A stretch of 64,000 nt of DNA from Prosthecobacter debontii. Its GTDB lineage: Bacteria; Verrucomicrobiota; Verrucomicrobiia; Chthoniobacterales; Chthoniobacteraceae. This document shows, piece after piece, positions 1 through 24,170 of the stretch. The stretch lies in contig CAMAUI010000008.1 of NCBI GenBank assembly GCA_945861385.1, positions 1-64,000 on the forward strand. Reading direction: 5' to 3'. The position numbers and the translations under genes were made by a program. How positions within the stretch are numbered: the first letter of the stretch is position 1; each line of letters opens with the position of its first letter. The notes under the pieces were generated by a model that was given only the letters and a program-made list of their open reading frames with translations, was not told the origin of the DNA and made no database searches.

Positions 1-1631
1 CGGACGCCCGCATCGGTCATCCCGTTGTTTTGGAAAATCGCCGCGAGATTCACGCCGCGCACCGCGCGATCCTGGTCGAGCAGGAACTGCGAGCGATACA
101 CCCGCCGGTTGTCGTTCAGTTCAACCGACTTTTCCATGTCGCGGATCGCCTCGTTGTAGCGGTTCTCCTGCTTTTTCTGCACAGCCGAGTAAAGCCACGG
201 CGTCGGGTCGCGCGGATCAATCTCCTTCGCCCGTTCAATGTCCTTGCGCGCCGCCGCCGCGTCGCCGACTTCGCTGAAAGCCTTGCCCGAATACGCGTGG
301 AGCAGGGCGCGCGTGGGCTCCAGCGTCACCGCAGTCTGCAAGTCCCTGCGCCCTTCCTCGGCGCGGCCCTGGCGGATGAGCGTCAGGCCCCGCCCGAGCC
401 ATGCGTTCCCCAGCGCGCCATCGAGCGCGATCGCTTCGTCGAACGCCGCCCGCGCATCCGCGATCTTGTTCTGCGCGCTCAGCAAAAACCCGCGCAATGC
501 GTGCGCCTGCGCATTCCGCGGCGCGAGCGCCAGGCCGCGCTCCAGCGCCTGCAATGCGGGGCCGGTGCGGCCGAATGAAAACTCCAGCTCCGCCACGCGC
601 GCCCACGCATAACCGTTTTTCGGCGCGATCTCCGCGGCCCGCTTTGCCGCCGCCAGCGCGGGTTCCAGCCTGCTTCGCGACTGCTCGTAGTACGAACGCG
701 CCATCCATTCGCCGGAAGTCTTCGCATCAGCCGCTCCCGCGTATTCCTCAAACTTCACCGCCGCCACCATCTCCTCGATCGCACGCCGTCCCGCCGCCGA
801 CTTCGGCACCGCGCGCAGCATCGCCTCCGCCTCATCCACGCGCCCCACCGCCAGCATCACCGCGGCGCGGTACAGCCGCGCGGGCGTCGAGCCCGTCCGC
901 AGCCATTTCGGATACTTCTCCAGCGCGCCGAGCAAATCCCCCGCACGATACGCAGCCAGCGAGGCCGCGACCTGCTGCTGGTCCGCAGCCGGCATGCCGA
1001 GTTCATCCGCATCGAGGACCGCCGGGTAATACAGGCACCATTGGATGATGTTCGTCGCATCAATCACCGCCGTCTTCCGCGGCGCACGCCCCGCGACCGC
1101 CTCGCCAAACTCCCCCGCGCGCAGCGTCACATTTCCATGCGCGTTCGACATCACGAGCTCGCCCTCGAACAAACCAAACGTCGTCTTCCCCCGTGAAACC
1201 GACACGAGGAACGCCGTCCCGCGCACCGCGCCATTCACCGCCGGCGTGCGCACATTCATCTCCGGCTGCCGTTCGCGGCTGAAAAAATAACCCTTCCCCT
1301 CATTCACATCGAGCGATCCAGGCGCACCCGCCTTCACCGGCGGCGTGATCTCGATGTCCGTCAGCTCGTCCATCCGCAGCATTGTGCGGTCGAGCAGGCG
1401 CACGACAGCCCGGCTGAACTCCCCCGTCCTCAGCCGGTCCTTCAGCAAAAGCTTGAAACCCTTCGGCGCATCCTTCCAAGCCTGGCCCTGGCGCTGCGAC
1501 TCTACCACGTTCTCCCTCTCGATGACTTGCGCACCGCCCGCATCCGCGCCCCGCACCGGCGCGATTACGAAGACTGCGAGCAATGCAAGCAACAGCGCCG
1601 GGGTTTGTGCGGCTGGCAAGCGACAGGTCAT
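1..1631 (-). CDS. FecR-domain and TPR-repeat secreted protein (3' end beyond window)
   Basis: The ORF track misses this gene because its stop lies beyond base 1; I read it directly from the minus strand for 543 codons with no stop. It starts with ATG at 1631 and a hydrophobic export signal (about residues 5-30, PALLLALLAVFVIAPVRG). A FecR-like domain follows at about 60-200, with motifs MNVRTPAVNGAVRGTAFLV and GLFEGELVMSN. From about residue 210 there are tetratricopeptide repeats, for example AWARVAELEFSFGRTGPALQ and DIERAKEIDPRDPTPWL. FecR domains normally sense or transmit envelope signals to an ECF sigma factor. Here there is no clear transmembrane anchor between cytoplasmic and periplasmic parts and no sigma factor beside it, so a periplasmic scaffold role is possible. 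It is divergent from the gene at 1863. The family call is firm; the function is inferred. Confidence 0.8.
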   Translation of the reverse strand, partial: MTCRLPAAQTPALLLALLAVFVIAPVRGADAGGAQVIERENVVESQRQGQAWKDAPKGFKLLLKDRLRTGEFSRAVVRLLDRTMLRMDELTDIEITPPVKAGAPGSLDVNEGKGYFFSRERQPEMNVRTPAVNGAVRGTAFLVSVSRGKTTFGLFEGELVMSNAHGNVTLRAGEFGEAVAGRAPRKTAVIDATNIIQWCLYYPAVLDADELGMPAADQQQVAASLAAYRAGDLLGALEKYPKWLRTGSTPARLYRAAVMLAVGRVDEAEAMLRAVPKSAAGRRAIEEMVAAVKFEEYAGAADAKTSGEWMARSYYEQSRSRLEPALAAAKRAAEIAPKNGYAWARVAELEFSFGRTGPALQALERGLALAPRNAQAHALRGFLLSAQNKIADARAAFDEAIALDGALGNAWLGRGLTLIRQGRAEEGRRDLQTAVTLEPTRALLHAYSGKAFSEVGDAAAARKDIERAKEIDPRDPTPWLYSAVQKKQENRYNEAIRDMEKSVELNDNRRVYRSQFLLDQDRAVRGVNLAAIFQNNGMTDAGV

Positions 1632-1862
1632 TCCATCCGGTTATCAGCACCGCCATCCGGCGGGAAGCTCAAAAGCCCGAGCCGCAAATTTTACGGCGGA
1701 TCGGGCGTCACTGGCGAGGTGCGATCATGCAGCGCGTCTGTGGCACCTGCACCCTCGATAGGATGAAAAACACGTTTGCCCAACGACTCCGGGATCAGAT
1801 GCCGGGCCAGTCGTGGTGATTGCGGCTGGATGTTCGCAGGCAGCCGTGCCCAATCTGCGCCA

Positions 1863-3035
1863 ATGCGAATGAAGCGCGCGATCATCGGCCTCGTTTTCGC
1901 GGTGATTGCCGTTGCCGCGTGGCTGGCTGTCCGACCGAATCGGGACGCAGTTCTTCGACCGTCGGGAAACCCCGCACCAACGCCGCCTTCGCCAAATGAT
2001 GGCCTGGCAAAATCGGGAGACGCAGAACCGACATTCCAAGCGGGGACGAGAGTCGCGGGGATCTCCGCGGAGGATTTGGAGTCCGTCCGGCGGCTCATCG
2101 GCGAGGGTTCCGATCCGCAGCGCGTGAAGGCCTTGCTGGGTCAGCTTTCCGAAAAGCTGGCAGCCATTTCCCCCGAGAAGGCCGCTGGGCTTCTCAGGGA
2201 CGCGCTGTCGAGCCGGCTCGATGCGGTGACGAAGCTGCCATTCGCCATTGGCGACGGTGGCAATCTCGCCACAGCACCGACGTTTCGCGTGTGGCTGCTC
2301 GATCAGCTTGGCCGCACGGATCCGCAAGCCGCCGCGGATTACGCGAAGCAGATTCTCGCCACGCGGGAGAGCGCCGATGAGTGGGCCGTGGCATTGCGCG
2401 ATTTTGCGAGGGTGCGCGGTGCGGCGGGGGATGTGGCTTTTCTCAATGGCAAGATGCGCGAACTGCTGGGCGATCCGCGCTGGCAGGCTGAGCAGAGCGC
2501 GGGGTGGCTGGAGGCTTTCGACGTGGCGGTGCATGCGAAGGCGGTGGAACTCACGCCCGACCTCGCGCGCCTGCTCATGCGCACCGGAAAGCAGGACAAG
2601 GCCGCGGCGCACGCCGCGTTCCTCACGCTGGACCGGCTGGTGCAGGCTGCACCGGCGGACATGCTCACGCGCGTGCAGGCGGAGCCGGGCTTGATGAAGG
2701 GGCGGGAGCTGACGCGGGCGAATTATTTCGCGCGCGCCGATGTGCGCGATGCGCGGCAGCGTGAGATCGTCGAGCGGTATATTCTCGATCCGGCTCGCTC
2801 AGCGGAGGAGCTGGCGAAGTTCGCGGGGCTCTATCCGAACGCGAACATGATGATCTCGAAGAACCTCCTCACGCCCACGGTGACGCCGTCGCGCGAGGAC
2901 ATCATCCTGCGAGACCGGGAGGCTCTCCGCGTGGCGCGGGAGTGGGCGGCTGATCCGCGGTTCGCGCCGTTGCAGGCGCATGTGCAGGCGATCCAGACAC
3001 GGCTGCGACAGTTTGTGGGCGAGTCGGAAAAGTAG
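1863..3035 (+). CDS. exported protein of unknown function
   Basis: This is a 390-residue protein. I take ATG 1863 (MRMKRAIIGLVFAVIAV) because it sits directly before a single hydrophobic segment (about residues 4-20) typical of an uncleaved anchor or signal peptide. The track start at 1776 adds an unlikely polar leader. After a proline-rich linker the rest is alpha-helical in character, rich in Ala, Leu, Arg and Glu, without a motif I recognise. It may be a helical-repeat protein. Residues from about 187 (AAGDVAFLNGKMRELL) are matched at DNA level by a decayed copy near 10973, so a paralogue once existed next to the giant gene. It is monocistronic: the divergent FecR-TPR gene is upstream and the giant repeat protein starts about 200 bases downstream. 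Confidence 0.7.
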   Translation: MRMKRAIIGLVFAVIAVAAWLAVRPNRDAVLRPSGNPAPTPPSPNDGLAKSGDAEPTFQAGTRVAGISAEDLESVRRLIGEGSDPQRVKALLGQLSEKLAAISPEKAAGLLRDALSSRLDAVTKLPFAIGDGGNLATAPTFRVWLLDQLGRTDPQAAADYAKQILATRESADEWAVALRDFARVRGAAGDVAFLNGKMRELLGDPRWQAEQSAGWLEAFDVAVHAKAVELTPDLARLLMRTGKQDKAAAHAAFLTLDRLVQAAPADMLTRVQAEPGLMKGRELTRANYFARADVRDARQREIVERYILDPARSAEELAKFAGLYPNANMMISKNLLTPTVTPSREDIILRDREALRVAREWAADPRFAPLQAHVQAIQTRLRQFVGESEK

Positions 3036-3242
3036 GGCGGTGACAGTCGCAGCGGAATATTTAGCTCAAATACTTGACCGGACACTCCCGCGCCGGAGCG
3101 AGTATCTCGCGCACAACTGAGGTGCGTGGGTGCCGATGCGAGAACGATCGGGCGGGTGTGTCCATTAAACGCAAAAACCGCTGCCGAAGAGTGCTTGTCA
3201 AAGCGGCGCGGACGACCATGCTCACAACCAACGCTTCCGCGC

Positions 3243-6200
3243 ATGAATTCCACCACAACCGAGTCTCCTCCTTGGAAATCCGACTCTCGGAACAGCACCG
3301 GACCTCCGCTTCATCCCTTCTCCATATCGAGCTCCTCCCGGACTCCCTCACTCCCCGGCGGCGATCCCCGTTCTGACCGTTTCCTGAGCGGCGGGCGCGA
3401 AAGCAAATTCCTGGCAGAAGCTGGAGCGATCGCATCTTCGCTCCGGCGCATTTTTCACCTCCTCTGCTGGGTGATCCTCCTGGCGCATCCGCATCGGAGC
3501 GCGATCGGGCAGAACGCGGCGGGCGCACGGTTCAATCCGCGTCTGGTCACGACGGGGAGTGTGGGCTCGATGGCGGTGCAGAGCGATGGGCGCATCGTGA
3601 TTGCGGGCCTCTTTACTTCGGTCAATGGCACGCCTCGCGGCGCGCTCGCGCGACTGAATGTGGATGGAACGCTCGACCCGACGTGGCGGTGCGACGTAGG
3701 CGGCTACGTGAATTCGATCGTGATCGTGGACGACTTTCTCTACGTCGGCGGCGAATTCCGCACGCTCGGCGGGCAGTCGCACTTCAATCTCGGACGCGTG
3801 AGCCTGGCGGGCGTCGGCGTGCCGGATGCAGCGTGGAATGTGAACACGGGCGGGGGATTCGGCCAGGGGCGCGTGGTGAAGCTGGCGACGGATGGGACAA
3901 ATCTTTACGTGGGCGGTGATTTCACGTCGCCACGGACATCTGTTTTCAAAGTCTCGCCTGCGGCAGCGGGCAGCGTCGATGGGAGTTGGACGGCGAATGT
4001 CGGCTTCGATGGCGTGCACGGCGGCGTGCGGACGATCTTGCCAGCGGGCGCGGCCGTGTTCATCGGCGGTCAGTTCGCCAGCAAGCTCGCGAAAGTGAGT
4101 GCGGCGACGGGAGCACCGGTCGCCGGGTGGGCACCCGGCAGCTTCGCCGGGCCCGCCAACGGAAACGTGCAGGGTCTCGCGCTCGATGGAGCCGGATCCG
4201 TGTACGCGGTCGGGCGTTTTAGCGCGGTGAACGGAGCGCCTCGCACAAGTGTGGCTAAACTCAATGTGACAACGGGGGCTGTCGATCCCACTTGGGTGGT
4301 GAGTCTGGCACCCAAATTCTCGCCTGGGCTGGTCGAGGCGCTCAGGGTCGCGGTGTCGGATGGCAAAGTGTATCTCGGCGGCGACTTCACGACCGCCGCG
4401 CCACCGCTGCGCGATTTCCTCCTGCGCGTCGATGCGACGACGGGCGCGACCGATCCCGAGTGGGCACCGGCGCCGGATAATGTGATCGCGCTACTCGACG
4501 TGCGCCCCGGCGCGATCTTCATCGGCGGCATCTTTCGCGAAATCGCCGGCGCGGTCGCACTGGGTTTTGCAAAGCTCGATCGAAACGTCGGCTCGCGCAT
4601 CCCGGAATTCGCGGCGCAACCCGAGGCGGCGGGGCAGGTGTTTGCGATCGCGCGACAGTCGGACGGGCGCCTGGTCATTGGCGGAAATTTTCACCTTGCA
4701 GAAGGGCTACGTCGGCCAAACCTCGCGCGGTTCAATCTCGACGGAAGCATCGACCGGACGTGGGCACCAGCCACGGACAATCCCGTGCAGGCTCTCGCCA
4801 TTGATGGTGAGAGCATCTTCGCTAGCGGAGATTTTACGACTATCGACGGCCTGCCGCGCCGACGGATCGGGAAGATCAGCGTGGCAACGGGTGCCGTCGA
4901 TGCTGCATGGGCACCGGAGATGAACGGCACAGTCCGCGGGCTGGCGACAGCGGATGGCGCAGTATTCGCCGGCGGAAATTTTACGACTGTGAGTGGAGTG
5001 TCCCGCGTGCGCCTCGTGAAGCTCGCCGCCGCCAACACGGGTGCCGTCGATCCGGGATGGCAGGCGAGTGTGACTGGCGGCGCGCAATACGTCGAAGGGC
5101 TGGCTGTAGCGGGCGGGCAGCTCTATGTCGTGGGCGATTTTTCGAGCGTGCGCGGGGTGGCGCGCAGCAACTTTGCACGAGTGAGTACGGTCGATGGCGT
5201 GCCGGATCCCGGGTGGGTGCCCGCTTCGGGAGGTCTGATCACGACGATCGCTCTCACGGCGACGGATGCGTTCGTCGGCGGCAACTTTCACGGCAAATTC
5301 AGCCTCGCCGGCAACGGTGCCCGGGATTCGAATTGGAATCCACCGATCACTGGTGGATCGAACGACCAGACCGGTGCGTTTGCCGTTTCCGGCGGCGACG
5401 TTTACGCTGGCGGCGGCTACGCATCGGGGCCGCTCGGTGGCAGCCCGGTGAAGCTAAACGCGACCACCGGCGCGAATGACCCGACGTGGAATAAACGAAC
5501 CGCTTTCCTGCTCTCGGGCGGCGACATCCAATCCTACGTGCAGGTGCTGTTTGCCGATGGCGCGGATGTCTTCGTAGGCGGCAATTTCACGAGCGTTCGC
5601 GGCGTGCCGCGCAATGGCTTTGCGTGGCTTCCGGTCGTGAGCGCGCCGCTGGTCTCGCTCGATGTGGGGAGCGGGCGCGTGGTGCTCGCTCCAGCGGCAG
5701 GCGAGGCGCTGAAGACGACTCACTTTTTCATCGAATCCATCGCGGGCGGCACGCTCGCGCTGCCGGAAGGGGTGCCGGTGCCAGCGGGATCCTTTGTGCT
5801 CGCGGAGGATGGCGCGGCGGGGCTCGTCTTCACCGCGACGGGCGGCGCGGCTTCGCTCGTGGTGAAATCCGCGATTGCGGAGCAGGCGGATGGCGTCGGT
5901 GCGGTGGCGACGAATTTCGCCTTCGAGGCGCCGGTTCTGCCGACGGTGCAATTCGCGAGCGGTGCCGTGAACACGAGCGAGGGGCAGGCGAGCATCACGC
6001 TCACGGTCACGAAGGATCGCCCCGGCGCGGTGAGCGTTCAATTCGCGACGCGGGCGGGCACGGCGGTGGCAGGCGGCGATTTCACGGCGCAGAGCGGCAC
6101 GCTCGACCTCGCGGATGCGGATACCAGTCGCACAATCAGCATCGCGCTCGCGACGGATGCGGTCTTGGAGCCGGACGAGATGTTTTTCGTTGATCTCTCC

Positions 6201-9200
6201 GCGCCATCGGGGGGGCGGCTCGGGACGAGGATCGTGGCAGCGGTGACGATTCTGAACGACGACGTGCCGGGCCCGACTGGCGGGGATGCCGTGGCCACTG
6301 CGCCGCAGACACCGGTGCCGGGTTCCACCGGCAGCCTCACGATCACGCTTACGCCGGGCGGCGTGGGGCGGTGGCGGCCGGCGGGCGACTTCGACTGGTA
6401 CGAGAGCGGCCGCGTGGTGGGCGCGCTGCCGCCGGGGAATTACCCGATCGAGTTCGATCAGGCTTCCGGCTTTCGCGCGCCGGAGACGATCGTGGTGCCG
6501 GTGGGCGCGGGTGAGGCCGCGGCGGATAGCGCCGCATATTCGCTGCTGAACGCCGTGGGCACGGGCGGGCTGCTCGTCACGATCAAGCCTTCGACCATCG
6601 CGACGCATGCCGACCTGGCGCAGCGCGGGCAGTGGCGGCGCGTGGGCGAGACGGATGGCTTTGGCACGCCGCTGTGGCGGGATAGCGATGCCGCGCTGGA
6701 GGACTTGCCGGCGGGGCCATACGTCATCGAGTTCAAGCCGGTGCCGGGCCGCACCACCCCGCCGGCGACCGTCATCACCGTCGTGGCCGGGCAGGTGAAT
6801 GCGACGACAGCGACGTATTTCATCCCCGAGCCGGTGCAGGGCGAGGCGGTGGCGGTGCTGCCCTTTGCGACCGCCACGGGGGGCGAGCCGTACCGCTACG
6901 TGGGGCAACTTCAAACGAGTCTCGGCTTTTCCTCCGGTACGGTGGTGAAAAGGCACACGGTGCTCACGGTCGCGCACGCCGTTTTCGACGACGAAGCGCT
7001 CACACTCGCGGCGGAGATGCGCTGGTTTTTCCAGCGCCACCACGGGCTGCACGATCCGCCGCCGCGGTTTGCGCGCGGCGCCTACATCTTCCAGGGCTAC
7101 GGCGCGGCGCGCTCGGAGCAGGAGCCCGGCATCTCCACGCCCGAGTCGCAGCGGCTCGATGCGGCGGCGCTGTTTTTCCTCGGCGACGCGGGGCGCGGCG
7201 GGAGCAGCGGCTTTCTCAGCGCCACCTCGTCGCCGGGCGAGTGGATCGCCGGTGCGCGGCAGAAAATCCTCGCAGGCTACGCGGTGCAGGGCGTGCCGCT
7301 CGGAGATCGCGGGCGGCTGTGCGCGACGAGCCCGCAGCCCGCACCATTCACCCTGTTGTATGGGCACGTTTTTGCCACCACGGCGCTGCGCGGTTTTCCC
7401 GGCGTGAGCGGCGGGCCGCTTTTTGTGCAGAGCGATGGCGGGGCGTTTTTTCCGGCGGGCGTTTTCCTCGGCGGCACGGGGCAGACGCTCGTGCGAGCGA
7501 TTGATGCGGAGGTGGCCGATCTCATCAGCCGCGCGGAGGTCTCCGGCAATGGCGGCGAGAACAACACGAGTGGCGGCATCATCCTCGTGGATCGCGGCAC
7601 GACCGATGGCCAGGTCTCGGGTGCGACGGTTTTTTCCGGCGCGCCGGTGGAGGGTGGCTTCATCGAGGTGCGCGGCACCGCGGGCACGGGCGGGTGGCGC
7701 GTCCTGGGAAACACGGAACAGGCGTATCGCGCGATCAACAGCCCGAAGCGCGCGCTGGTCGCCGCGCGCTACCAGGTCGAATTCCGGCCTGCGCTGAATA
7801 CGATCGCGCCGACGACGCTCACCGTGGAGGTGCGACCGGGGCAGACGACACTGATCACCGCCGCCTACGCGCCGTTGCTGCCGCCCGCGATCACGAGCGC
7901 CGGTTCAGCACAGGGGCGGCGCGGGGCGGCTTTCAACTACATGATCACGGCGAGCCAGGCTCCTACCTCTTTCGACGTGCTCGGCACGCTGCCCGAGGGC
8001 TTGAGTCTAAACATAAAAACTGGTCGCATCGCCGGGACGCCCGCGGCGGCGGGAGTTTTCCCGGTCACGATCTTCGCGGCGAACAGCGCCGGCACTGACT
8101 CGAAACTGCTCACGATCCGGCTCGCACCCATCGTCACCGGCCCGGCCACGGCACAGGGGCAGCGCGGTGAGCTTTTCAGCCAGGCTGTCGCGACTTCCGA
8201 TCCCGTGGACAGCTTCAGCGCCACGGGGCTGCCCGCGGGGCTCGGCATCAATACGGCCACGGGAGAAATCTCCGGCACTCCTGGCGAAAGCGGCGAGTTT
8301 TCGGTCAATCTCGGCATCAGGGCGGCTGGCGGCGATTCCACTGCGGAGCTGCTGCTGCGGATCAGCCCGCAGATTTCCACGCCGGCAAATCTCGCGGTGG
8401 TGCGCGGGCAGCCGGTGCTCTTTCCGATCACGTCGCCGGATGCGATCACGAGCTTCGGCACCGCCGGGTTGCCCGCTGGGCTCGGCCTCGATGTGGGCTC
8501 AGGCGCGATCACGGGCGTGCCGCAGCAGGCGGGAATCTTCGCCGCGACGCTGAGCGCGACGAATAGCGGTGGCACGACGCTGAAACCGCTCTCGATCATC
8601 GTGAACCCCGCGATCACGAGCGCCACGGAGGCGCAGGTCACGAAAGGGCAGGGCTTCAACTACACGATCACCGCGACGGATCCCGCGACGAGTTTTTCCG
8701 CGACAAATCTGCCCGCCGGCCTCGCGGTCGAGAGCGGCGGCGGCGTGATCTCCGGCGTGCCAGCCGAGTCGGGTGTCTTCAGCGTGATCCTCCAGGCCAC
8801 TGGGCCGGCGGGCACTGCGGCGGGCACGCTCACGCTGCGCGTGGCACCCTCGGTGGATGGCGTGCTCGCCGCGAGCGGGCTGCGCGGGGTGCCGTTCGAG
8901 TACCAGATTCCCACGAGCGATGCGGGCACCACTTTTTCCACGGCGGCGCTGCCGCCCGGGCTGATGCTGGATACGGCCACGGGGCGGATCAGCGGCACGC
9001 CCGCTTCGGCGGGTGTCTTCGCCACGAGCGTCACGATCTCAGGCACGGGCGGCTCGGCATCCAGCCCGCTCACGCTCACGATCTCGCCGAGGATCACGAG
9101 CGCGGTGCAGCTCCAGGCCGTGCTTGGCAGGCCGGTCGTGCCTTTTGCGATCACGGCGACGGATCCATCGTCGGCATTTTCCGCCACGGGCCTGCCGCCG

Positions 9201-10745
9201 GGGCTGGTCGTTGATGCGACCACGGGCGTGATCAGCGGCAGCCCGGCAGCCACGGGGAGTTTCGCCGCCGGAGTGAGCGCGACGGGCGAGGCGGGCACCG
9301 CGCAAGCGACGGTGCAGATCGTGGTGACGGAGCCCGCTCTCGCCGTGGTGACGGGCACGCGCGGAACGGCGCTGAGTTTTTCCACCTCAGGATCCGGCAC
9401 GGCCGCGAGCACGCCATTGCCGCCGGGCCTCGCGCTGAATCCCGCCACGGGCGAAATCTCCGGCACGCCCTCGCTGGCCGGGCAGTACGACGTGAGCCTG
9501 TCGCTCACGGCGGGTGGCTCCGTGAGCACGCTGCCGCTGCGCTTCGAAATCCGCGGCCTGCTGAATGTGCAGGTGAGCGGGAGCGGCGGCATCACGGACG
9601 GCTTTGCGGGGATCACGCCGCGCGTGATCGGCTCCCCGATTTCGATCATGGCACGCCTCGAGAAAGGCAGCGTTTTCTCCGGCTGGTCCGGCGATGTGGA
9701 GACGGCGGAACCGGCCCTCGATTTCCCGATGCAGGACGGGCTGACGCTGACGGCGAATTTCACCACGCGCCAAGCGGTGCGCGGCACCTACACCGGGCTC
9801 GTCCGCGATGGTGAGCCGGGCACATTTTCCCGTTCGGGGCTGCTCACCGCCACGATCAGCGCGGCTGGCCGCGTCACCGGGAAATTCCACCGCGGCAGCG
9901 CCACGGAGACCTTCTCGGCGAAGATCGGCGATGGTATGTTTGACGCGGTGACGCAACCGGGCGATGTGGATCTGGACTTGCGATTCACCGGCGTCGGTCA
10001 CCGCCGTCTCGAAGGAACGGCCGACGGGCTGGCCGTGCAGCTTTTCCACCTCCCGCACGATCGCTCGAACCGCGTGCCGGATGGCGTGGCCGGGCGCTAC
10101 ACCGTGCTCATCGGGCCGGTGCCAGCCGCTGCGGACGATGCCGGACCTGTGGGGCACGGCGCTGCCGAGCTGTTCGTGAGCCCGGGTGGGGGGATCGAGA
10201 TGCGAGGCACGCTCGCGGACGGGACGGCGATCACCGCAGCGGGCAAGCTGGATGTCCGGAAACGGTGGTCGCACTTCGTCCACAGCTACAAAAAAGGCGG
10301 CGGCATCATCGGCGAAATCACGTTCGACGAATCAGCGCCCGAGCACGATGCCAGCGGCGTTGTGACGTGGTTTCGCCCGGCGAATCCGCTGGCCGCGCGA
10401 TTCCCCGACGGCTGGCCTGCGGGCCTCGTGCGCGACTGGCGCGCTTCGCAGTTTGAACCGGGCCACCTGCTAAAGGGAACCACGACGCTCGAGCGAACCG
10501 GTGGCGGCCTGGCGGATCGGGACATCGAGATCGAAATCGCACCGCGCTCTCTCGTGACCTCGACGGAGCGGGGCTTTTCGCTGCGCTACTCGCCGGCGAC
10601 CGGGCTTTTCCGCGGGAAAATCCCGCCGACACTGAACGAGCCGACGCAGACTTTCAAAGGGGCGATTTTCCGAAAGGACGACAGCGGATCCGGCCACTTC
10701 ATCGGCGGCGATAAGGCCGGCGCGATACAGTTCGCGCTGCCGTAG
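3243..10745 (+). CDS. giant secreted protein: delta-60 repeats, Calx-beta, trypsin-like protease, He_PIG repeats
   Basis: The protein has about 2500 residues. Domains in order: signal-like segment near residues 66-85 (FHLLCWVILLAHP); about 14 delta-60 repeats at 105-800 (DGRIVIAGLFTSVNG type); a Calx-beta domain at about 899-1007 ending in VTILNDD; two PEGA-like modules; a trypsin-like serine protease domain at about 1202-1434. Then come seven He_PIG Ig-like repeats at about 1543-2100 (LPAGLGINTATGEISGTP type), an InlB-type repeat (FSGWSGDVE) and an unassigned C-terminal domain. The protease triad looks intact: His1245 in LTVAHAV, Asp1306 in RLDAAAL, Ser1389 in GVSGGPLF. The start is uncertain. 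ATG 3243 is the last ATG before the signal segment but leaves about 60 odd residues in front, and part of that stretch matches an intergenic repeat, so a rarer downstream start is possible. No sorting or autotransporter domain is seen. Confidence 0.85.
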   Translation: MNSTTTESPPWKSDSRNSTGPPLHPFSISSSSRTPSLPGGDPRSDRFLSGGRESKFLAEAGAIASSLRRIFHLLCWVILLAHPHRSAIGQNAAGARFNPRLVTTGSVGSMAVQSDGRIVIAGLFTSVNGTPRGALARLNVDGTLDPTWRCDVGGYVNSIVIVDDFLYVGGEFRTLGGQSHFNLGRVSLAGVGVPDAAWNVNTGGGFGQGRVVKLATDGTNLYVGGDFTSPRTSVFKVSPAAAGSVDGSWTANVGFDGVHGGVRTILPAGAAVFIGGQFASKLAKVSAATGAPVAGWAPGSFAGPANGNVQGLALDGAGSVYAVGRFSAVNGAPRTSVAKLNVTTGAVDPTWVVSLAPKFSPGLVEALRVAVSDGKVYLGGDFTTAAPPLRDFLLRVDATTGATDPEWAPAPDNVIALLDVRPGAIFIGGIFREIAGAVALGFAKLDRNVGSRIPEFAAQPEAAGQVFAIARQSDGRLVIGGNFHLAEGLRRPNLARFNLDGSIDRTWAPATDNPVQALAIDGESIFASGDFTTIDGLPRRRIGKISVATGAVDAAWAPEMNGTVRGLATADGAVFAGGNFTTVSGVSRVRLVKLAAANTGAVDPGWQASVTGGAQYVEGLAVAGGQLYVVGDFSSVRGVARSNFARVSTVDGVPDPGWVPASGGLITTIALTATDAFVGGNFHGKFSLAGNGARDSNWNPPITGGSNDQTGAFAVSGGDVYAGGGYASGPLGGSPVKLNATTGANDPTWNKRTAFLLSGGDIQSYVQVLFADGADVFVGGNFTSVRGVPRNGFAWLPVVSAPLVSLDVGSGRVVLAPAAGEALKTTHFFIESIAGGTLALPEGVPVPAGSFVLAEDGAAGLVFTATGGAASLVVKSAIAEQADGVGAVATNFAFEAPVLPTVQFASGAVNTSEGQASITLTVTKDRPGAVSVQFATRAGTAVAGGDFTAQSGTLDLADADTSRTISIALATDAVLEPDEMFFVDLSAPSGGRLGTRIVAAVTILNDDVPGPTGGDAVATAPQTPVPGSTGSLTITLTPGGVGRWRPAGDFDWYESGRVVGALPPGNYPIEFDQASGFRAPETIVVPVGAGEAAADSAAYSLLNAVGTGGLLVTIKPSTIATHADLAQRGQWRRVGETDGFGTPLWRDSDAALEDLPAGPYVIEFKPVPGRTTPPATVITVVAGQVNATTATYFIPEPVQGEAVAVLPFATATGGEPYRYVGQLQTSLGFSSGTVVKRHTVLTVAHAVFDDEALTLAAEMRWFFQRHHGLHDPPPRFARGAYIFQGYGAARSEQEPGISTPESQRLDAAALFFLGDAGRGGSSGFLSATSSPGEWIAGARQKILAGYAVQGVPLGDRGRLCATSPQPAPFTLLYGHVFATTALRGFPGVSGGPLFVQSDGGAFFPAGVFLGGTGQTLVRAIDAEVADLISRAEVSGNGGENNTSGGIILVDRGTTDGQVSGATVFSGAPVEGGFIEVRGTAGTGGWRVLGNTEQAYRAINSPKRALVAARYQVEFRPALNTIAPTTLTVEVRPGQTTLITAAYAPLLPPAITSAGSAQGRRGAAFNYMITASQAPTSFDVLGTLPEGLSLNIKTGRIAGTPAAAGVFPVTIFAANSAGTDSKLLTIRLAPIVTGPATAQGQRGELFSQAVATSDPVDSFSATGLPAGLGINTATGEISGTPGESGEFSVNLGIRAAGGDSTAELLLRISPQISTPANLAVVRGQPVLFPITSPDAITSFGTAGLPAGLGLDVGSGAITGVPQQAGIFAATLSATNSGGTTLKPLSIIVNPAITSATEAQVTKGQGFNYTITATDPATSFSATNLPAGLAVESGGGVISGVPAESGVFSVILQATGPAGTAAGTLTLRVAPSVDGVLAASGLRGVPFEYQIPTSDAGTTFSTAALPPGLMLDTATGRISGTPASAGVFATSVTISGTGGSASSPLTLTISPRITSAVQLQAVLGRPVVPFAITATDPSSAFSATGLPPGLVVDATTGVISGSPAATGSFAAGVSATGEAGTAQATVQIVVTEPALAVVTGTRGTALSFSTSGSGTAASTPLPPGLALNPATGEISGTPSLAGQYDVSLSLTAGGSVSTLPLRFEIRGLLNVQVSGSGGITDGFAGITPRVIGSPISIMARLEKGSVFSGWSGDVETAEPALDFPMQDGLTLTANFTTRQAVRGTYTGLVRDGEPGTFSRSGLLTATISAAGRVTGKFHRGSATETFSAKIGDGMFDAVTQPGDVDLDLRFTGVGHRRLEGTADGLAVQLFHLPHDRSNRVPDGVAGRYTVLIGPVPAAADDAGPVGHGAAELFVSPGGGIEMRGTLADGTAITAAGKLDVRKRWSHFVHSYKKGGGIIGEITFDESAPEHDASGVVTWFRPANPLAARFPDGWPAGLVRDWRASQFEPGHLLKGTTTLERTGGGLADRDIEIEIAPRSLVTSTERGFSLRYSPATGLFRGKIPPTLNEPTQTFKGAIFRKDDSGSGHFIGGDKAGAIQFALP
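3353..3418 (+). repeat. dispersed repeat, copy B
   Basis: This is the partner of 24171-24235, in the same orientation. It falls inside the predicted 5' end of the giant delta-60 gene, before the signal-peptide codons. That weakens the case that those first residues are really translated. Confidence 0.5.
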
Positions 10746-13649: not shown

Positions 13650-14191
13650 GGGGTGGTGGATGAAACGGCAATCGCGTTGTCCGCCAAGCTCTATTTGTAA
13701 GCGGGGACGGGCTTGGGCGTGATTGGAAGTGAGTCCACCTGGAGGAGCAGAAAGGGCCGTGGAAGCTGGGGCGAAGGTGTGGAGAGGCGGCGCACAAGGA
13801 GCGGCGACATTCCTGTCGCCGACGCTGGTTGCGCCGGAGGCGCACATGCTCCGGCAAGGTGGCGGGCGGTGGCGAGTGAAGGAAATTTTTTGCCACGAAC
13901 GGTGCGCCGCCGCGTTGCCGAGGGTGTGCGCGCCTCCGGCGCATGTGCGGACGGCGACAGGAATGTCGCCGCTCCCTGCCGCCGCCTGCCCGCTTGCGGA
14001 CCGGAAATCAATCACGCCCGACACAGAAGGAACGATGGTTCTGTAATTTCAACCGGCGGCGGGTTAGTTTCCGGCATGCTTGTTTCCATTCCTGTCCAAA
14101 TTACGACTGCCGCCATGGCCGCATTGCCGGCGCGGCTTGTGGAACCACCGCCTCGCGCAGCTCACTGGCGCTGCGCTGCGGATCTTCTGCC
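13650..14191. other. divergent intergenic region with REP-like palindromes
   Basis: This 542-base gap separates the divergent threonine aldolase and PSD1 genes, so it should hold both promoters. I could not pick a convincing -35/-10 pair. The middle is occupied by a compound inverted repeat, listed separately. Short ORFs called here on both strands translate the palindromes and are not genes. Confidence 0.7.
13798..13975. repeat. compound inverted repeat with nested palindromes
   Basis: The outer arms (13798-13821 and 13952-13975) are perfect 24-base reverse complements. Each arm contains its own hairpin, GGCGACA-TTCC-TGTCGCC. Just inside each arm is a second palindrome: TGCGCCGGAGGCGCA at 13830-13844, and a version interrupted by an extra GC around 13927-13943. 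The arrangement resembles a pair of REP units in mirror orientation (BIME-like). Confidence 0.8.
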
Positions 14192-16612
14192 ATGAAGAGC
14201 TCGCCCGTCGGCAGACAATTGGGACTGCTCCCCGTGCTGGCTTTCACCTGCGCGCAGGCGATGGCGGCGGGCGCGATTGATTTCAATCGCGATGTGCGGC
14301 CGATTCTTTCCGACAAATGCTACGCCTGCCACGGGCCGGATGCGAAGTCGCTGGAGGGCAAGCTGCGTCTCGATCTGCGCGCCAGTGCGACGGCTCCGGC
14401 GGAGAGCGGCGAGATTGCCATCGTGCCGGGGCGGCCGGAGAAAAGTGCGCTGGTGGAGCGGATCGAGTCGGCGGACAAGGACGAGCGGATGCCGCCGCCG
14501 AAGTCGCACAAGACGCTCGATGCGGCGGAGAAGGCGGTGCTGCGGCGCTGGATCGCGGAGGGCGCGGAGTATAAGGATCACTGGTCCTTTCTCACGCCGT
14601 CGCGCGCGGCAGCGCCCGCGGTGGGCGAGCCGGCGTGGGAGTCGAATGGCGTGGACCGGTTCGTCTTTGCCACGCTCGCGGGGCGGAAGATGACGCCGTC
14701 CGCGGAGGCGGATCGCGCGACGCTCATCCGGCGGGTGTCGCTGGACCTGCGCGGGTTGCCGCCGACGCCGGTGGAGATCGACGCTTTCACGAACGACACG
14801 GGCGAGCGCGCCTACGAGCAGATGGTGGATCGCATGCTGGCGAGTCCTCGTTTCGGCGAGCGCATGGCGGTGGTCTGGCTGGACCTCGCGCGCTACGGCG
14901 ACACGAATGGCTACCACAACGACTCCGACCGCCCGGTGTGGCTGTGGCGCGACTGGGTGGTGGACGCTTACAACCGCAACATGCCGTTCGATCAGTTCAC
15001 GATCTGGCAGCTCGCGGGCGATCTGCTGCCGGACAGCGGCGTGGAGCAAAAGATCGCGTCGGGTTTCAATCGCAACGTGCGTTTCAACGAGGAGGGCGGC
15101 GCGGACCCGGCGGAGTTTCTCGCGGCATACGCGGCGGATCGCGCGATCACGATGAGCCGCGTGTGGCTGGGGATGACGCTGAACTGCGCGCAGTGCCACA
15201 CGCACAAATACGACCCGATCACGCACAAGGAATTCTACCAGCTCACGGCGTTCTTCAATTCGCTGGAGGAAGTCGGCGCGGGGGACGTGAGCGGCTTTCA
15301 CGGAAAGCCCGTGCCGCCAGTCATGCGCGTGCCGACGCCGGAGATGCGCACGAAAGTCGCCGCCGCGAAGGCGAAGCTGGAGGGATTGGAAAAGCAGTTG
15401 GCGAACGGTGTTTTCACCTCCGCCGTCGAGGGGCCCGGCCGGAACGGCGAGCCGCTGGCGATCGAGCTGCAAAAGCAGGAAATCAAGGCTGCACGCGACG
15501 CGGTGGCATCGCTGGAAAATGACAAGAGCATGCCACTGCAGATGGTCAGCGTGGAGATGCCAAAGCCCAAACCCGCGTTTGTGCTGATGCGCGGCGATTT
15601 TCAAACGCCGGGCGACGCCGTGGAGCGCGATGTGCCGAAGTTTCTCCCGCCTTTCCCCGCCGGCCAGCCGCGCAACCGCCTCGGCCTCGCGCGCTGGCTC
15701 ATGCAGACGGAGCAGCCGCTCGTCGCGCGCGTGCAGGTGAACCGTTTCTGGCAGATGCTTTTCGGCGAAGGGCTGGTGCGGACGATGGGCGACTTCGGTA
15801 TGCAGGGCGCCTTTCCCACGCACCCGGAACTGCTCGACTGGCTGGCCGTGCAGTTCATGGATTCCGGCTGGGACGTGAAGCGCACGCTGAAGCTCATCGT
15901 CATGAGCCGCACGTATCGGCAGGCATCGAATGACACGCGCCGCTACGCCGAACGCGACCCGCAAAACAAGCTGCTCTGGCGTGCGCCGCGTGTGCGCCTC
16001 GCGGCGGAGGCGGTGCGGGACAACGCGCTCGCCGTCGCCGGATTGCTCTCGGAAAAAATGGGCGGGCCGCCGGTGTTTCCCTACCAGCCGGCGGATTTTT
16101 ACAAGGGCAAGAGCAATGGCTGGCGGTGGAATCTCAGCAAGGGTGAGGACCTTTACCGGCGCGGCCTCTACACTTTCTGGCGGCGCACCACGCCGTATCC
16201 GACCTTCGTCATTTTCGACGCCCCGGATCGCGCGGAATGCACCGCGGAACGCCCGCGCACGAACACGCCGCTCCAGGCGCTCGCCACGCTGAACGACCCG
16301 CAATTTGTCGAAGCCGCGCGGGTCTTCGCGCAGCGCTTGCTCGCCGAGTCCGCGCCTGACACCGACGCACGGATCGCCCTCGCCTACCGGCTGGCGCTGG
16401 CCCGCCCGCCCTCGCCGCGCGAGCAGCAGGTCATGCGCGACTTTGTCGCCGCACAGCTCGCGCGCTACCGCGCCGACGAAAGCGCCGCCAAGGCGTTGAT
16501 CGCCGCCGGGCAGGCGCCGCGCCCCGCAGGGCTGGATGCCGCCGAGCACGCGGCGTGGACCACGACGGCAAATGTCATTTTGAACCTCGACGAGACGATC
16601 ACGAGAAACTGA
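14192..16612 (+). CDS. PSD1-type protein: planctomycete cytochrome C, DUF1549, DUF1553
   Basis: This 806-residue protein starts at ATG 14192 (MKSSPVGRQLGLLPVLAF), directly before a Sec signal ending near AQAMAAG. The PSCyt1 domain follows with a haem c site CYACH (about residue 48). DUF1549 covers roughly 150-360 (LDLRGLPPTPVEIDAF) and includes a second CxxCH, CAQCH, in LNCAQCHTHKYDPI. DUF1553 covers the C-terminal third (ARVQVNRFWQMLFGEGLVRT, then TNTPLQALATLNDPQF). These proteins are abundant in Planctomycetota and Verrucomicrobiota and almost always pair with DUF1501. Their function is unproven, though haem binding suggests an extracytoplasmic redox role. It heads a five-gene run and lies 5 bases before the next PSD1 gene. 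Confidence 0.93.
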   Translation: MKSSPVGRQLGLLPVLAFTCAQAMAAGAIDFNRDVRPILSDKCYACHGPDAKSLEGKLRLDLRASATAPAESGEIAIVPGRPEKSALVERIESADKDERMPPPKSHKTLDAAEKAVLRRWIAEGAEYKDHWSFLTPSRAAAPAVGEPAWESNGVDRFVFATLAGRKMTPSAEADRATLIRRVSLDLRGLPPTPVEIDAFTNDTGERAYEQMVDRMLASPRFGERMAVVWLDLARYGDTNGYHNDSDRPVWLWRDWVVDAYNRNMPFDQFTIWQLAGDLLPDSGVEQKIASGFNRNVRFNEEGGADPAEFLAAYAADRAITMSRVWLGMTLNCAQCHTHKYDPITHKEFYQLTAFFNSLEEVGAGDVSGFHGKPVPPVMRVPTPEMRTKVAAAKAKLEGLEKQLANGVFTSAVEGPGRNGEPLAIELQKQEIKAARDAVASLENDKSMPLQMVSVEMPKPKPAFVLMRGDFQTPGDAVERDVPKFLPPFPAGQPRNRLGLARWLMQTEQPLVARVQVNRFWQMLFGEGLVRTMGDFGMQGAFPTHPELLDWLAVQFMDSGWDVKRTLKLIVMSRTYRQASNDTRRYAERDPQNKLLWRAPRVRLAAEAVRDNALAVAGLLSEKMGGPPVFPYQPADFYKGKSNGWRWNLSKGEDLYRRGLYTFWRRTTPYPTFVIFDAPDRAECTAERPRTNTPLQALATLNDPQFVEAARVFAQRLLAESAPDTDARIALAYRLALARPPSPREQQVMRDFVAAQLARYRADESAAKALIAAGQAPRPAGLDAAEHAAWTTTANVILNLDETITRN

Positions 16613-16617
16613 CGCCC

Positions 16618-19600
16618 ATGCCGTCGTGCACGCCAACGAATCAGCTCCGGGCCGCCACATTGCTGCTCGCGGCCTTCGCTTTGCCCGCGCAGGCGGAGAA
16701 AGGCACTGCCGGGCTGGAGTTTTTTGAAAACAGAATCCGTCCGGTGTTCGTGGAGCATTGCCACGAGTGCCACAGCGCCACGGCGAAGAAGGTGAAGGGC
16801 GATCTCAAGCTCGATACGCGCGAGGGCTTTCTCAAAGGCGGGACGGACGGCGTGATCGTCGTGCCGGGCGAGCCGGAGAAGAGCCGCCTCATCCACGCCG
16901 TGCGCTACGAGGATGAAGACACGCGGATGCCGCCAAAAAAAGATGGCCGCAAGAAACTGCCGGATGTGGCGATCGCCGATCTCGTCGCATGGGTGAAGAT
17001 GGGCGCGCCGTATCCCGAGACATCGGCCGCCGTGCTCGCGAAAAACAAGGCTGCGCGGCCATGGGCGTTCGATCCGGTCAGGAATCCGCCGCCACCCGCC
17101 GTGAAAAATACGGCGTGGCCGGCGACCTCAATTGATCCATTCATCCTCGCGAAATTGGAGGAGCGCGGCCTGCAGCCCGCCGCGCCCGCCGACAAGCGCA
17201 CGCTCATCCGCCGCGCGACCTACGACCTCACGGGACTGCCGCCGACACCGGATGAAATCGCCGCCTTTCTCGCCGACGAATCACCGCGCGCCTACGCGAC
17301 ACTGGTGGATCGCCTGCTCGCGTCACCGCGCTACGGCGAACGATGGGGGCGACACTGGCTGGACATCGTGCGCTACGCCGACACGGCGGGGGACACGGCG
17401 GATTATCCCGTGGGGCTCGCGTGGCGATACCGCAACTACGTCATTGACGCCTTCAACGCCGACAAGCCTTACGACGAATTTTTGCGCGAGCAGATTGCCG
17501 GCGACGTCATCGCGGAGCAGGGGCCGCGCGAACGTTACGCCGAGAGGCTCACCGCGACCGGCTTCCTCGCGATCTCGCGGCGGTTCGGATTCGATTCGGA
17601 GAAGTATCAGCACCTCATGATTCAGGACACGATTGACACGCTCGGGCAGACCGTGCTGGGCCTGAGCCTGGGTTGCGCGCGCTGCCATGACCACAAGTTC
17701 GACCCCATCTCGATGCGCGACTACTATGCGCTCTACGGCATTTTCGACAGCACGCGCTACCCATTCCCCGGCTCCGAGCAAAAGAACAAATCCCGTTCGA
17801 TGGTGCCGCTTGCGCCGGCGGCGGAGGCGCAGCCGATTTGGCGCGAATATGAGAAGCTCGTCGCGGCCAGACTGGCCGCGAAAAAGCAGGGTGCCCCGCC
17901 GGTCGTGCTGCGCTCCCTCCATGATCCGGATGGCGATTTTGAAATGCAGAAGGATGCGGCGGGCGGCAGCTACGGCGTGATCGTGGCCCCGTGGATGTGG
18001 GAGGGCAAACTGAGCGTGACGGGCCCGGCGCAGAGCCCGTTCAAGAATTTTTACCCGTTCGGGAGTTTTGGCGTGAACATCGCCGGCGGCGACTCCGACT
18101 ACCGGCTCGCGCAATCGCTTCACCCGCGGCGGACGGCGGAGAAAAATCGCGTGCTGCATGTGAACCTCGACTTCCGCCCGGCGGCGCCCGGCGCGAAAGG
18201 ACTGCATCGTTTCTGGCTCGGGGCGCAGGCCGGTGCGCCAGCCGTCGAGCTGTTCATCTCGGCGGAGGCGGTTTTCGTCCGGGCCGGGGAAAAAATGGAA
18301 AGCGTCGCCGCGCTGAAACCAAAAACCTGGCACAACCTGCAACTGACGCTCGACCTCGGGAACCGCACGTTCGGCGGAACGGTCAGCCAGACGGATGACG
18401 CGACAACTTTTTCGGACAAGGCATTCACCGCGGGCTGGCCGGGCGTGATTGATTACGTCGCGCTGGACTCCACCGCCCGCGATGGCGCGGCGTTGCCGGG
18501 CTTGGAACTCGACAACTTCGGGACTCAACCGGAACCGATCGCGCCGGCATCCACGGCGCCGCCGGTCCCGCCGGCGAGTGCCGAGGCGGCAAGGCTGAAC
18601 GCTGAGTTGCAAAAACTGACCGGCGTGGAGGGAGACCTGGAGGATCAGAAAAATGGCGCTGCTCCAGCCGGGCTGTGGAACGCGGGATCCAAGAGCGTCG
18701 TGAAAATCTCCGCCGACGCGCAGAGTCCGTTCCAGAATATCGTGGGCGCTGGCAAGCTTGGCGTGGAGATGCCGAACCGCGCCCCCTACGACGGCTTCGG
18801 CCTGCGGCTGGCCACCCCGTGGGCGGCGAAAAACACGGAGCGTCTGTTTGCCAGCGTGGACTTCCGCTGCGGGAAACAGGACGCAGGCGGCGAGGGAACG
18901 TGGCACTTTTACATCGGCCACGGAGCCGGCAAAGCCGCGGTCGAATTCTGCTTCAACGGCAGCGAATTTTTCGCGCGCACCGGCGAAACCTGGGCCGCTG
19001 TCGCCAAGGTGCGCCCCGGCGAATGGCACCAGCTCCAGCTCACACTCAACCTCAAGGACAAGACCTGCGCGGGCACGCTGGCGACGGCGGACGGGAGCAC
19101 GCAATTCACCGCCGGGTTCGCCGCGGGATGGGACGGCACGATTGATTACAGCTACATTGACAGCGTCGGCAACCGTCCCGGCGCGCGGCCCGCACTCAGC
19201 GCGGACAACTTCATCTTCCGCGAAAGCGCGTTCCCGCCGCCGGACGGAAAACAACTCGCGGAAAACGAAGCCCGCCGCGCCAAGGCCGCAAACCTGCGGA
19301 AGCAGCTTGCGGCGCTGAACGACGAAGCGAAGAAGACCGACCGGGATCTGAACTCCCTGCTCGAAGACGGTCCTTGCGAGATGACCTACGGCGTGGTCGA
19401 GGGCACGCCACACCATGCGCGGATGCAATTGCGCGGCGAACCCGATCGTCCCGGAGACGAGGTGCCGCGCGGCTTCATCAGCTCCCTCGGCGGCGGACCG
19501 CTCCCGCCGGGCACGCAGGGAAGCGGAAGGCTGGAACTCGCGCAGTGGCTGACCCGCCCGGACAACCCGCTGGCCGCGCGCGTGATGGTCAATCGCATCT

Positions 19601-20388
19601 GGCAATACCACTTTGGCCGCGGGCTTGTGATGACGTCGAATGACTTCGGCACGCGAGGCCAGGCGGCGACGCATCCTGAATTGCTCGACCACCTCGCGAC
19701 GAAATTTGTCCAGGGCGGCTGGTCGGTGAAAGGAATGCACCGCGCCATCATGCTCAGCGCGACGTACCGGCAGGGCTCGATCATTCCGGAACGAAACGCC
19801 GGCGCATTGGCGGAACACCACTCCACATTTCCGCGGCGGAGGATCAGCGCCGAGGAAATGCGCGATTCCATCCTCGCGATCAGCGGCGAACTCGATCTCA
19901 CGCCGGCGCGCGGGCATCCGTTTCCCTCGCCGCTCAAGTCCGCGTTCACCCAGCACATGCCGTTCAGCGCGGTGTATGATCACAACCAGCGCAGCGTGTA
20001 TCTCATGACCCAGCGGATCAAACGCCACCCGTTCCTCGCGCTGTTCGACGGCCCCGATCCGAATGCCAGCACCGCCGACCGCCGCAACACCACGGTGCCG
20101 ACGCAGGCGCTTTATTTCCTCAACGCCCCATTCGTCCATGAAAAGGCCGGCAAAGGCGCCGCACTTCTCCTGGCTGCACGGACGGACGAAGCGCAGCGGA
20201 TCGAACTCGCGTGGCTCCTCACCACCGGACGCCCGCCCACCGGCGCCGAGCAGTCCGAGGCCGCCGCATTCCTCGCCGCCTACCGTGCGGAACTCACCGC
20301 TTCGGGGCAAAAGGATATCGAACTTGCCGCACTCTCTGCCTATGTTCGCACGCTCTTCGGCAGCAACGAATTTTTGCACCTCGACTGA
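16618..20388 (+). CDS. second PSD1-type cytochrome, enlarged by two beta-sandwich inserts
   Basis: This is a 1256-residue protein. The start at ATG 16618 (MPSCTPTNQLRAATLLLAAF) gives a clear signal peptide ending at AQAEKG. It has the haem site CHECH near residue 46, DUF1549 (YDLTGLPPTPDEIAAFL), a second CxxCH (CARCHDHKFDPIS) and DUF1553 near the C-terminus (MVNRIWQYHFGRGLVMTSNDF). It is several hundred residues longer than its neighbour. The extra length is two related modules at about 440-640 and 690-870, each starting near AQSPF and containing WHxLQLTL and GWxGxIDY motifs, which look like laminin-G/concanavalin-type sandwiches. They may bind a polysaccharide; this is inference. The FGE-like gene starts 6 bases after the stop, so the run is probably one operon. 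Confidence 0.92.
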   Translation: MPSCTPTNQLRAATLLLAAFALPAQAEKGTAGLEFFENRIRPVFVEHCHECHSATAKKVKGDLKLDTREGFLKGGTDGVIVVPGEPEKSRLIHAVRYEDEDTRMPPKKDGRKKLPDVAIADLVAWVKMGAPYPETSAAVLAKNKAARPWAFDPVRNPPPPAVKNTAWPATSIDPFILAKLEERGLQPAAPADKRTLIRRATYDLTGLPPTPDEIAAFLADESPRAYATLVDRLLASPRYGERWGRHWLDIVRYADTAGDTADYPVGLAWRYRNYVIDAFNADKPYDEFLREQIAGDVIAEQGPRERYAERLTATGFLAISRRFGFDSEKYQHLMIQDTIDTLGQTVLGLSLGCARCHDHKFDPISMRDYYALYGIFDSTRYPFPGSEQKNKSRSMVPLAPAAEAQPIWREYEKLVAARLAAKKQGAPPVVLRSLHDPDGDFEMQKDAAGGSYGVIVAPWMWEGKLSVTGPAQSPFKNFYPFGSFGVNIAGGDSDYRLAQSLHPRRTAEKNRVLHVNLDFRPAAPGAKGLHRFWLGAQAGAPAVELFISAEAVFVRAGEKMESVAALKPKTWHNLQLTLDLGNRTFGGTVSQTDDATTFSDKAFTAGWPGVIDYVALDSTARDGAALPGLELDNFGTQPEPIAPASTAPPVPPASAEAARLNAELQKLTGVEGDLEDQKNGAAPAGLWNAGSKSVVKISADAQSPFQNIVGAGKLGVEMPNRAPYDGFGLRLATPWAAKNTERLFASVDFRCGKQDAGGEGTWHFYIGHGAGKAAVEFCFNGSEFFARTGETWAAVAKVRPGEWHQLQLTLNLKDKTCAGTLATADGSTQFTAGFAAGWDGTIDYSYIDSVGNRPGARPALSADNFIFRESAFPPPDGKQLAENEARRAKAANLRKQLAALNDEAKKTDRDLNSLLEDGPCEMTYGVVEGTPHHARMQLRGEPDRPGDEVPRGFISSLGGGPLPPGTQGSGRLELAQWLTRPDNPLAARVMVNRIWQYHFGRGLVMTSNDFGTRGQAATHPELLDHLATKFVQGGWSVKGMHRAIMLSATYRQGSIIPERNAGALAEHHSTFPRRRISAEEMRDSILAISGELDLTPARGHPFPSPLKSAFTQHMPFSAVYDHNQRSVYLMTQRIKRHPFLALFDGPDPNASTADRRNTTVPTQALYFLNAPFVHEKAGKGAALLLAARTDEAQRIELAWLLTTGRPPTGAEQSEAAAFLAAYRAELTASGQKDIELAALSAYVRTLFGSNEFLHLD

Positions 20389-20394
20389 CCTGAA

Positions 20395-21225
20395 ATGAAA
20401 CCTATCACGCGTAGCCTGGCCGTCCTGTTAACGGTGACTTTTGGGCTTGGGAGCTTGCAGTCCGCAGGGCCGGCTCCTGAACCGAAGCCGGCGGTTGCGG
20501 GTCAATCCAACCCCGGCGACACGATCACAAATTCCATCGGCATGAAGCTGGCCTTCATTCCGCCAGGTGAGTTCGTCATGGGAAGCCCGAAGACGGAGGC
20601 CGGGCGGGAAGGACACGAAACCCAACACAAGGTAACCCTGACCAAAGGATTTCACCTCGGCATCCACACGGTAACTCAGGCCCAGTGGAAGGCCGTGATG
20701 GGTGAAAGCGCGAGCCGCTTCAAAGGCGACGACCTGCCCGTGGATGAGGTCTTGTGGAGTGACGCAGCGGCCTTCTGCAAGAAACTGAGCGAGAAGGAAG
20801 GCAGGCATTACCGTCTCCCCACCGAGGCGGAGTGGGAGTATGCCTGCCGGGCGGGAACAACGACCACTTTCAACACTGGGGATGGCGAGGATGCACTGGC
20901 CGAAGCAGGCTGGTTCGGCGGCAACAGCGATGCCAAAGCGACCCATCCCGTCGGCCGGAAGAAACCCAACGCATGGGGCCTCCACGACATGCACGGTAAC
21001 GTCTGGCAGTGGTGTAACGATGTTTTTGGCAACTATTCCAATAATGCGGTCACGGACCCCGCGGGACCGGTGGACGCCGGCCGCCAGATCTATGTGCTGC
21101 GGGGCGGGGATTGGCGCTGCGCTCCACGGTTCTGCCGTTCCGCGAAGCGATTCGGAAGCGGACCAAACTTCCGGGACGATGTCTTCCGTGGCTTTCGGGT
21201 GGCGCTTGCCGCGAGTGGGAAATGA
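20395..21225 (+). CDS. formylglycine-generating-enzyme (SUMF1/FGE) family protein, exported
   Basis: This 276-residue protein has a signal peptide (ITRSLAVLLTVTFGLGSLQSAG) and then the FGE/SUMF1 fold. Its landmarks are NSIGMKLAFIPPGEFVMGSP, YRLPTEAEWEYACRAG, GLHDMHGNVWQWCND and VLRGGDWRCAPRFC. True FGE oxidises a sulfatase cysteine to formylglycine using a C-x4-C pair; here Cys242 and Cys247 have exactly that spacing (RCAPRFC). Many members of the wider family lack the pair and do other jobs. The closing FRC of classical FGE is FRV here. It lies between two PSD1/DUF1501 pairs, so it may act on one of those exported proteins, though I see no CxPxR sulfatase motif in them. Activity is therefore open. 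Confidence 0.88.
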   Translation: MKPITRSLAVLLTVTFGLGSLQSAGPAPEPKPAVAGQSNPGDTITNSIGMKLAFIPPGEFVMGSPKTEAGREGHETQHKVTLTKGFHLGIHTVTQAQWKAVMGESASRFKGDDLPVDEVLWSDAAAFCKKLSEKEGRHYRLPTEAEWEYACRAGTTTTFNTGDGEDALAEAGWFGGNSDAKATHPVGRKKPNAWGLHDMHGNVWQWCNDVFGNYSNNAVTDPAGPVDAGRQIYVLRGGDWRCAPRFCRSAKRFGSGPNFRDDVFRGFRVALAASGK

Positions 21226-21260
21226 ATGAAACAAGAGCTGCCATTCCTTGAACTCACACC

Positions 21261-22676: not shown

Positions 22677-22715
22677 TCTCCCATTTCACCTGTCCAATAT
22701 TGAACCTGTAAGAAT

Positions 22716-24152: not shown

Positions 24153-24170
24153 TGAACAGACCTCCTCGCT

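Follow-up and report, generated by a model that had tools for sequence, protein, structure and literature searches.

A predicted S1 protease in a constant cassette behind exchangeable heads of giant Verrucomicrobiota proteins

The Prosthecobacter debontii DNA analyzed here, a stretch of 64,000 nucleotides referred to as the window, encodes a 2500-residue protein in which a trypsin-like domain lies in mid-chain, between delta-60 repeats and Ig-like repeats. The locus raises the question of whether such a domain has the features of an active enzyme and, if so, what it would cut. A preliminary description, made from the sequence, had noted an intact-looking protease within a surface scaffold and suggested either self-processing or cleavage of a bound substrate. 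We compared the protein with its relatives and modeled the protease region in order to weigh these readings.

The gene and the layout of its product

The gene (positions 3243–10745; it and all of its features lie on the + strand) was delimited as 2500 aa from the ATG at 3243, with homology of the cassette and tail as evidence. The open reading frame itself is uninterrupted from 3126 to 10745 (2539 aa). ATG 3243 is a doubtful start, since an interspersed repeat (3341–3417) falls between it and a hydrophobic segment, RRIFHLLCWVILLA (residues 68–82, 3444–3488), which was found by inspection and is likely to be the core of a signal peptide. Other copies of the repeat do not keep the reading frame. 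The repeat is about 75–81 bp long, has a second copy in the window at 24164–24235 and roughly 27–41 matches in its own genome, and was present in all 10 genus genomes searched. Some copies are arranged head to tail (e.g., contig C9, 648–807), and several lie immediately 5′ of an ATG. The repeat had no match in Rfam, a scan of the whole window against Rfam returned nothing, and folding z-scores (−0.89 and 1.85) did not support a hairpin within the 5′ repeat. A block on the 5′ side of the repeat (3174–3296) is about 72–78% shared with copies on contigs C37, C82, and C49, the last of which lies close to where another delta-60 gene begins; the block is possibly a common 5′ leader. Elsewhere in the window, positions 13943–24152 hold, consecutively, two PSCyt1/PSCyt2/PSD1 genes, one FGE-sulfatase gene, and two DUF1501 genes, the usual planctomycete/verrucomicrobial set, with no evident link to the protease. 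An uninterrupted open reading frame of 3369 aa on the − strand (53817–63926) is a candidate for another giant protein.

The head of the protein comprises 14 delta-60 (DUF5122) repeats (residues 109–799, 3567–5639), which Pfam assigns to that family with E = 2.7e-38 and 130.3 bits against a cut-off of 27. They were counted with an iterated HMM built on the protein's own repeats, and the result agrees with the earlier figure of about 14. This number suggests that the repeats probably form two seven-bladed propellers. A Calx-beta domain, also named in the preliminary description, is located at residues 901–1007 (5943–6263; Pfam E = 3e-14). It is followed by what we term the cassette, which recurs in about 40 relatives: β module 1 (residues 1028–1104, 6324–6554), β module 2 (residues 1108–1196, 6564–6830), the S1 trypsin-like protease domain (residues about 1205–1435, 6855–7547; assigned by Pfam, AlphaFold2, and Foldseek), a disordered Gly/Asn/Thr linker (residues 1439–1472, 7557–7658; pLDDT 25–58), and β module 3 (residues 1468–1540, 7644–7862). 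The modules were delimited in an AlphaFold2 model and by module homology; all three are homologous to one another. The family motif SGNGGxNNTxGGI precedes the linker. The earlier assignment of PEGA-like modules was not confirmed, as Pfam PEGA (PF08308) was matched in none of 41 family members, three of which weakly match CarboxypepD_reg; the term describes the modules but does not place them in that family.

The seven Ig-like repeats that had been counted correspond to seven He_PIG stretches starting at residue 1547 (7881–9512, the end being approximate; Pfam E = 4e-55). Beyond them are a Flg_new_2/InlB B-repeat-like domain (residues 2114–2175, 9582–9767; E = 1.4e-4, slightly under the cut-off) and an all-β C-terminal tail (residues 2180–2500, 9780–10742). 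The tail is common to several proteins of the same genome, including the delta-60 protein on C49, which gave no protease match; a domain for sorting or attachment would be expected to be shared in this way. An AlphaFold2 model of the tail from eight rows was of low confidence (pLDDT 62.7) and retrieved no usable relative with Foldseek, and no anchoring role is claimed from structure.

Fold and catalytic residues of the protease domain

When isolated, the protease domain of the window matched Trypsin_2 (PF13365) with E = 8e-4 (20.6 bits versus a gathering score of 27.6) and Trypsin (PF00089) with E = 9e-3 (16.3 bits versus 20.6), below the Pfam gathering score in both cases. The match is nonetheless far more than chance, because all nine of the closest relatives match Trypsin_2 (best E = 2.6e-9) and the fold is that of S1 proteases. 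At E ≤ 1, Trypsin_2 was matched in 34 of the 41 cassette members and Trypsin in 36. The domain carries no name in NCBIfam. A sequence search of the PDB, using either the window domain or a nine-row profile, gave weak hits only, and a fold comparison was therefore needed. Residues 1020–1540 were modeled with AlphaFold2 from an alignment of 41 sequences (mean pLDDT 85.6; mostly 90–97 in the protease blocks). Foldseek found 790 matches to this model in the PDB at E ≤ 1e-3, and the matches listed were S1 proteases; a structural comparison with this group had been proposed in the preliminary description. The best compact match was 1p3c, a glutamyl endopeptidase (TM 0.82 when normalized to the target length, rmsd 3.0), and YdgD (7uxg) matched with a TM of 0.73. 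The top rows, CCP-CCP-SP fragments of MASP/C1r, were set aside as flexible-domain matches with an rmsd near 25. As modeled, the domain has the double β-barrel chymotrypsin fold (S1, PA clan).

Alignment placed the catalytic residues at exactly the positions first proposed, each in a family motif: His1245 (codon 6975–6977) in LTVAHAVFDD, Asp1306 (7158–7160) in SQRLDAAALF, and Ser1389 (7407–7409) in GFPGVSGGPLF, with GVSGGP at its center. The domain thus has both the His-Asp-Ser (HDS) order and the GxSGG motif by which membership is judged. In the model, a strand leads to the His, and the Asp and the Ser each stand before a strand, as in chymotrypsin. We gathered 43 named loci, from which exclusion of truncated or frameshifted copies left 41 first or only copies, including that of the window. 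Far from being consistently absent among homologues, the triad was present in all 41, as well as in 11 further close relatives and in 12 of 12 distant standalone relatives of about 250–400 aa. The claim of an intact-looking protease is supported by this conservation together with the fold. A pseudoenzyme reading of the window copy was rejected, although it is real for the second copies described below.

The residue that precedes the catalytic Ser (the 194 equivalent) is Asn in 31 of the 41 copies, Ala in eight, and Gly and Val in one each, the Val being that of the window; it is never Asp. Chymotrypsin-type zymogen activation needs Asp194, which pairs with a freed N terminus. Since Asp is missing at this position, the domain should reach an active form on folding, with neither a freed N terminus nor zymogen processing being required. 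Such folding is compatible with a protease embedded in mid-chain. A chymotrypsin-type zymogen was rejected, the window having Val in place of Asp194. The proteases of the HtrA/DegP type are active without N-terminal cleavage, as is predicted here. The family resembles these and other Trypsin_2 (PF13365) proteases in its best Pfam match and in a GNSGG-type Ser motif that lacks Asp194, but it has other accessory domains. HtrA/DegP identity was rejected because Pfam found no PDZ domain after the protease, either in the window or in the 41 members.

At the 213 equivalent, a position assigned by motif, the window has Phe, and the 41 copies have Tyr (31), Phe (nine), or Cys (one). Glutamyl endopeptidases of the V8 type carry a His at this position that selects Glu at P1. 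With Tyr or Phe in 40 of the 41 copies in place of the Glu-selecting His, identity as a glutamyl endopeptidase (S1B) was rejected. The best full-domain match, 1p3c from Bacillus intermedius, is similar in fold, HDS order, and Gly at the 215/216 equivalents, but shares only 15% identity. Its His213 equivalent is replaced by the Phe/Tyr seen here, and the window domain differs further in lying mid-chain between β modules.

A constant cassette behind exchangeable heads

The order module-module-protease-module is constant in about 40 relatives, and the part that can be aligned among them consists of the two β modules, the protease, the disordered linker, and usually the third module. The mid-scaffold protease of the preliminary description is a constant feature of the family, located behind heads that can be exchanged. 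Delta-60 heads occur in the window protein and in L041, L048, L050, L069, and L072. A profile search for the same domain order in other genomes had been proposed, and the series delta-60, Calx-beta, cassette was indeed found again in four of these proteins (L041, L050, L069, and L072). Other heads are of the RCC1 (L059 and L065), NHL (L051), FG-GAP_3 (L064, L068, L070, L074, and L075), LRR_5 (L046), and FG-GAP_2 types (three proteins; by motif L053, L060, and L063), and further relatives carry repeats of the GSDGNFYGTT type. Loci L052, L053, and L056 have in common a 2.5–2.6 kb block of DNA with 87–90% identity, which runs from about 7 aa before module 1 to the end of the gene. Upstream of this block, L053 has a head with no relation to those of L052 and L056; the same MAG yielded both L053 and L056. 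This pattern is a recent exchange of heads behind a conserved enzyme. Polymorphic toxin systems also recombine a constant part with variable domain cassettes (PMC3482391), but the polarity is reversed here: the enzyme stays the same while its N-terminal head changes.

Among 384 genomes sampled from the class, 14 gave strong matches to the family profile, as did five of 289 genomes in a phylum sample. The closest named relatives include MAGs labeled as Chthoniobacteraceae and Prosthecobacter, which fall within the genus of the window by matching contigs. All named loci carry labels of Verrucomicrobiota groups except L062, from a MAG labeled as Proteobacteria, which may be misassigned or reflect a transfer.

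We propose that the protein is probably an exported, scaffold-tethered S1 serine endopeptidase, in which a constant enzyme would cut proteins brought to it by an exchangeable head. Judging by the type of domain, the delta-60 head would bind the target; we found no ligand for such repeats. The Calx-beta, Ig-like, and β modules may serve as spacers, and the C-terminal tail may retain the whole molecule on the cell surface or within the matrix. Any protein that the head brings close would be cut by the protease, and a change of head would retarget the enzyme. The exchangeable heads fit cleavage of a bound substrate, one of the two functions originally suggested. Two features of the window domain weigh against the proposal, namely its trypsin scores under the Pfam gathering values and the Val before the catalytic Ser, which none of the other 40 copies has.

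The repeats could instead form a display stalk for a generic secreted digestive protease, the heads binding cell wall, matrix, or polysaccharide rather than the substrate. Both β-propellers and Ig-like repeats often serve for display, and standalone protease relatives are encoded in the window's own genome and elsewhere in its bacterial family. These relatives (e.g., L017, L018, L022, and an own-genome copy on C54) share the triad motifs at about 26–30% identity, but they are without propeller or cassette modules and form a separate clade (100/100 support). Exchange of heads among several fold types, however, fits targeting better. Passive display seems to us rather unlikely, though it is still a fair rival. 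The own-genome relative (L099, G000:C54:2642-3262) has an intact triad.

Intact and catalytically dead copies

Nine distinct proteins (L042, L054, L055, L057, L058, and L082–L085) carry two protease domains, the second following the first at a distance of about 1,285 residues. Those with a name are Luteolibacter, Haloferula, and Akkermansia/Akkermansiaceae records, including the cultured Luteolibacter marinus (L042) and Haloferula BvORR071 (L055). The window protein, with a single protease domain, does not belong to this subtype. The HDS triad is present in all nine first copies. At the corresponding positions, the second copies have QNQ, QNF, QND, ENA, QNI, QNA, QND, QDL, and QNL; His and Ser are lost in all nine and Asp in most. 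The second copies form one clade (100/100 support) with 61 invariant columns and a mean identity of 54%, versus 63% among first copies. For two close pairs, dN/dS was 0.16 and 0.18 in the second copies, compared with 0.10 and 0.11 in the matching first copies. On this sequence evidence, the second copies are maintained pseudoproteases under purifying selection and not decaying remnants. We envisage a duplication of the region in this one related lineage, after which the second protease evolved into a conserved pseudoprotease that probably binds or regulates the first copy. The clostridial Csp proteases also include an active protease that works with catalytically dead homologues, but they are subtilisin-type and act in spore germination, whereas the domains here are S1-type and are contained in one giant protein.

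The existence of dead versions, including a lone domain in L094 besides the nine second copies, and the purifying selection on the latter could mean that the protease fold is retained in general as a binding module for which catalysis is irrelevant. Against this, the triad and GxSGG are retained in the window copy and, throughout the named set, in every other first or only copy, and catalytic loss is limited to the one clade of second copies and one long-branch copy. We consider an inactive or vestigial protease very unlikely. The L094 domain (587–8494), which forms that long branch, reads R-D-E in place of the triad, His and Ser being lost, and is possibly a second, independent pseudoprotease.

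The tandem proteins also bear on self-processing, the other function suggested at the outset, in which the protease would cleave the chain to which it belongs (e.g., in the linker or between head and tail) and so free the propeller head or mature the scaffold. Both the mid-chain position of the protease and the disordered linker adjoining it, with a conserved GG.NNT.GG motif, would suit this role. In the tandem proteins, however, it is the dead second copies that still have the motif after them, whereas another sequence takes its place after the active first copies; its presence thus does not follow catalytic competence. In addition, proteins that differ widely in head and tail conserve the triad equally well. 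Self-processing therefore appears improbable, and a tethered endopeptidase that acts on proteins bound by the head is the reading we retain. Extended to the family, it suggests, tentatively, a retargetable system of giant Verrucomicrobiota proteases, in which one S1 cassette recombines with recognition heads of many kinds. In one lineage, the active copy may further be controlled or guided by a pseudoprotease on the same chain. The window protein would be a single-protease member.

The protease fold and every named domain were already known. In the literature searched, which covered few subscription journals, we found no prior description of the architecture, of head exchange at a fixed boundary, or of an active/dead S1 tandem. 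The giant secreted multidomain proteins of Verrucomicrobiota are mostly annotated as mere repeats; a conserved, intact cassette behind exchangeable heads gives a subset of them a testable enzymatic role, and the nine proteins with an active/dead tandem are a natural experiment in how a pseudoprotease functions within one chain. A decayed protease copy was seen at L080 (9962–10723), where it is frameshifted; the genome concerned, H5_VER2, has several intact paralogues.
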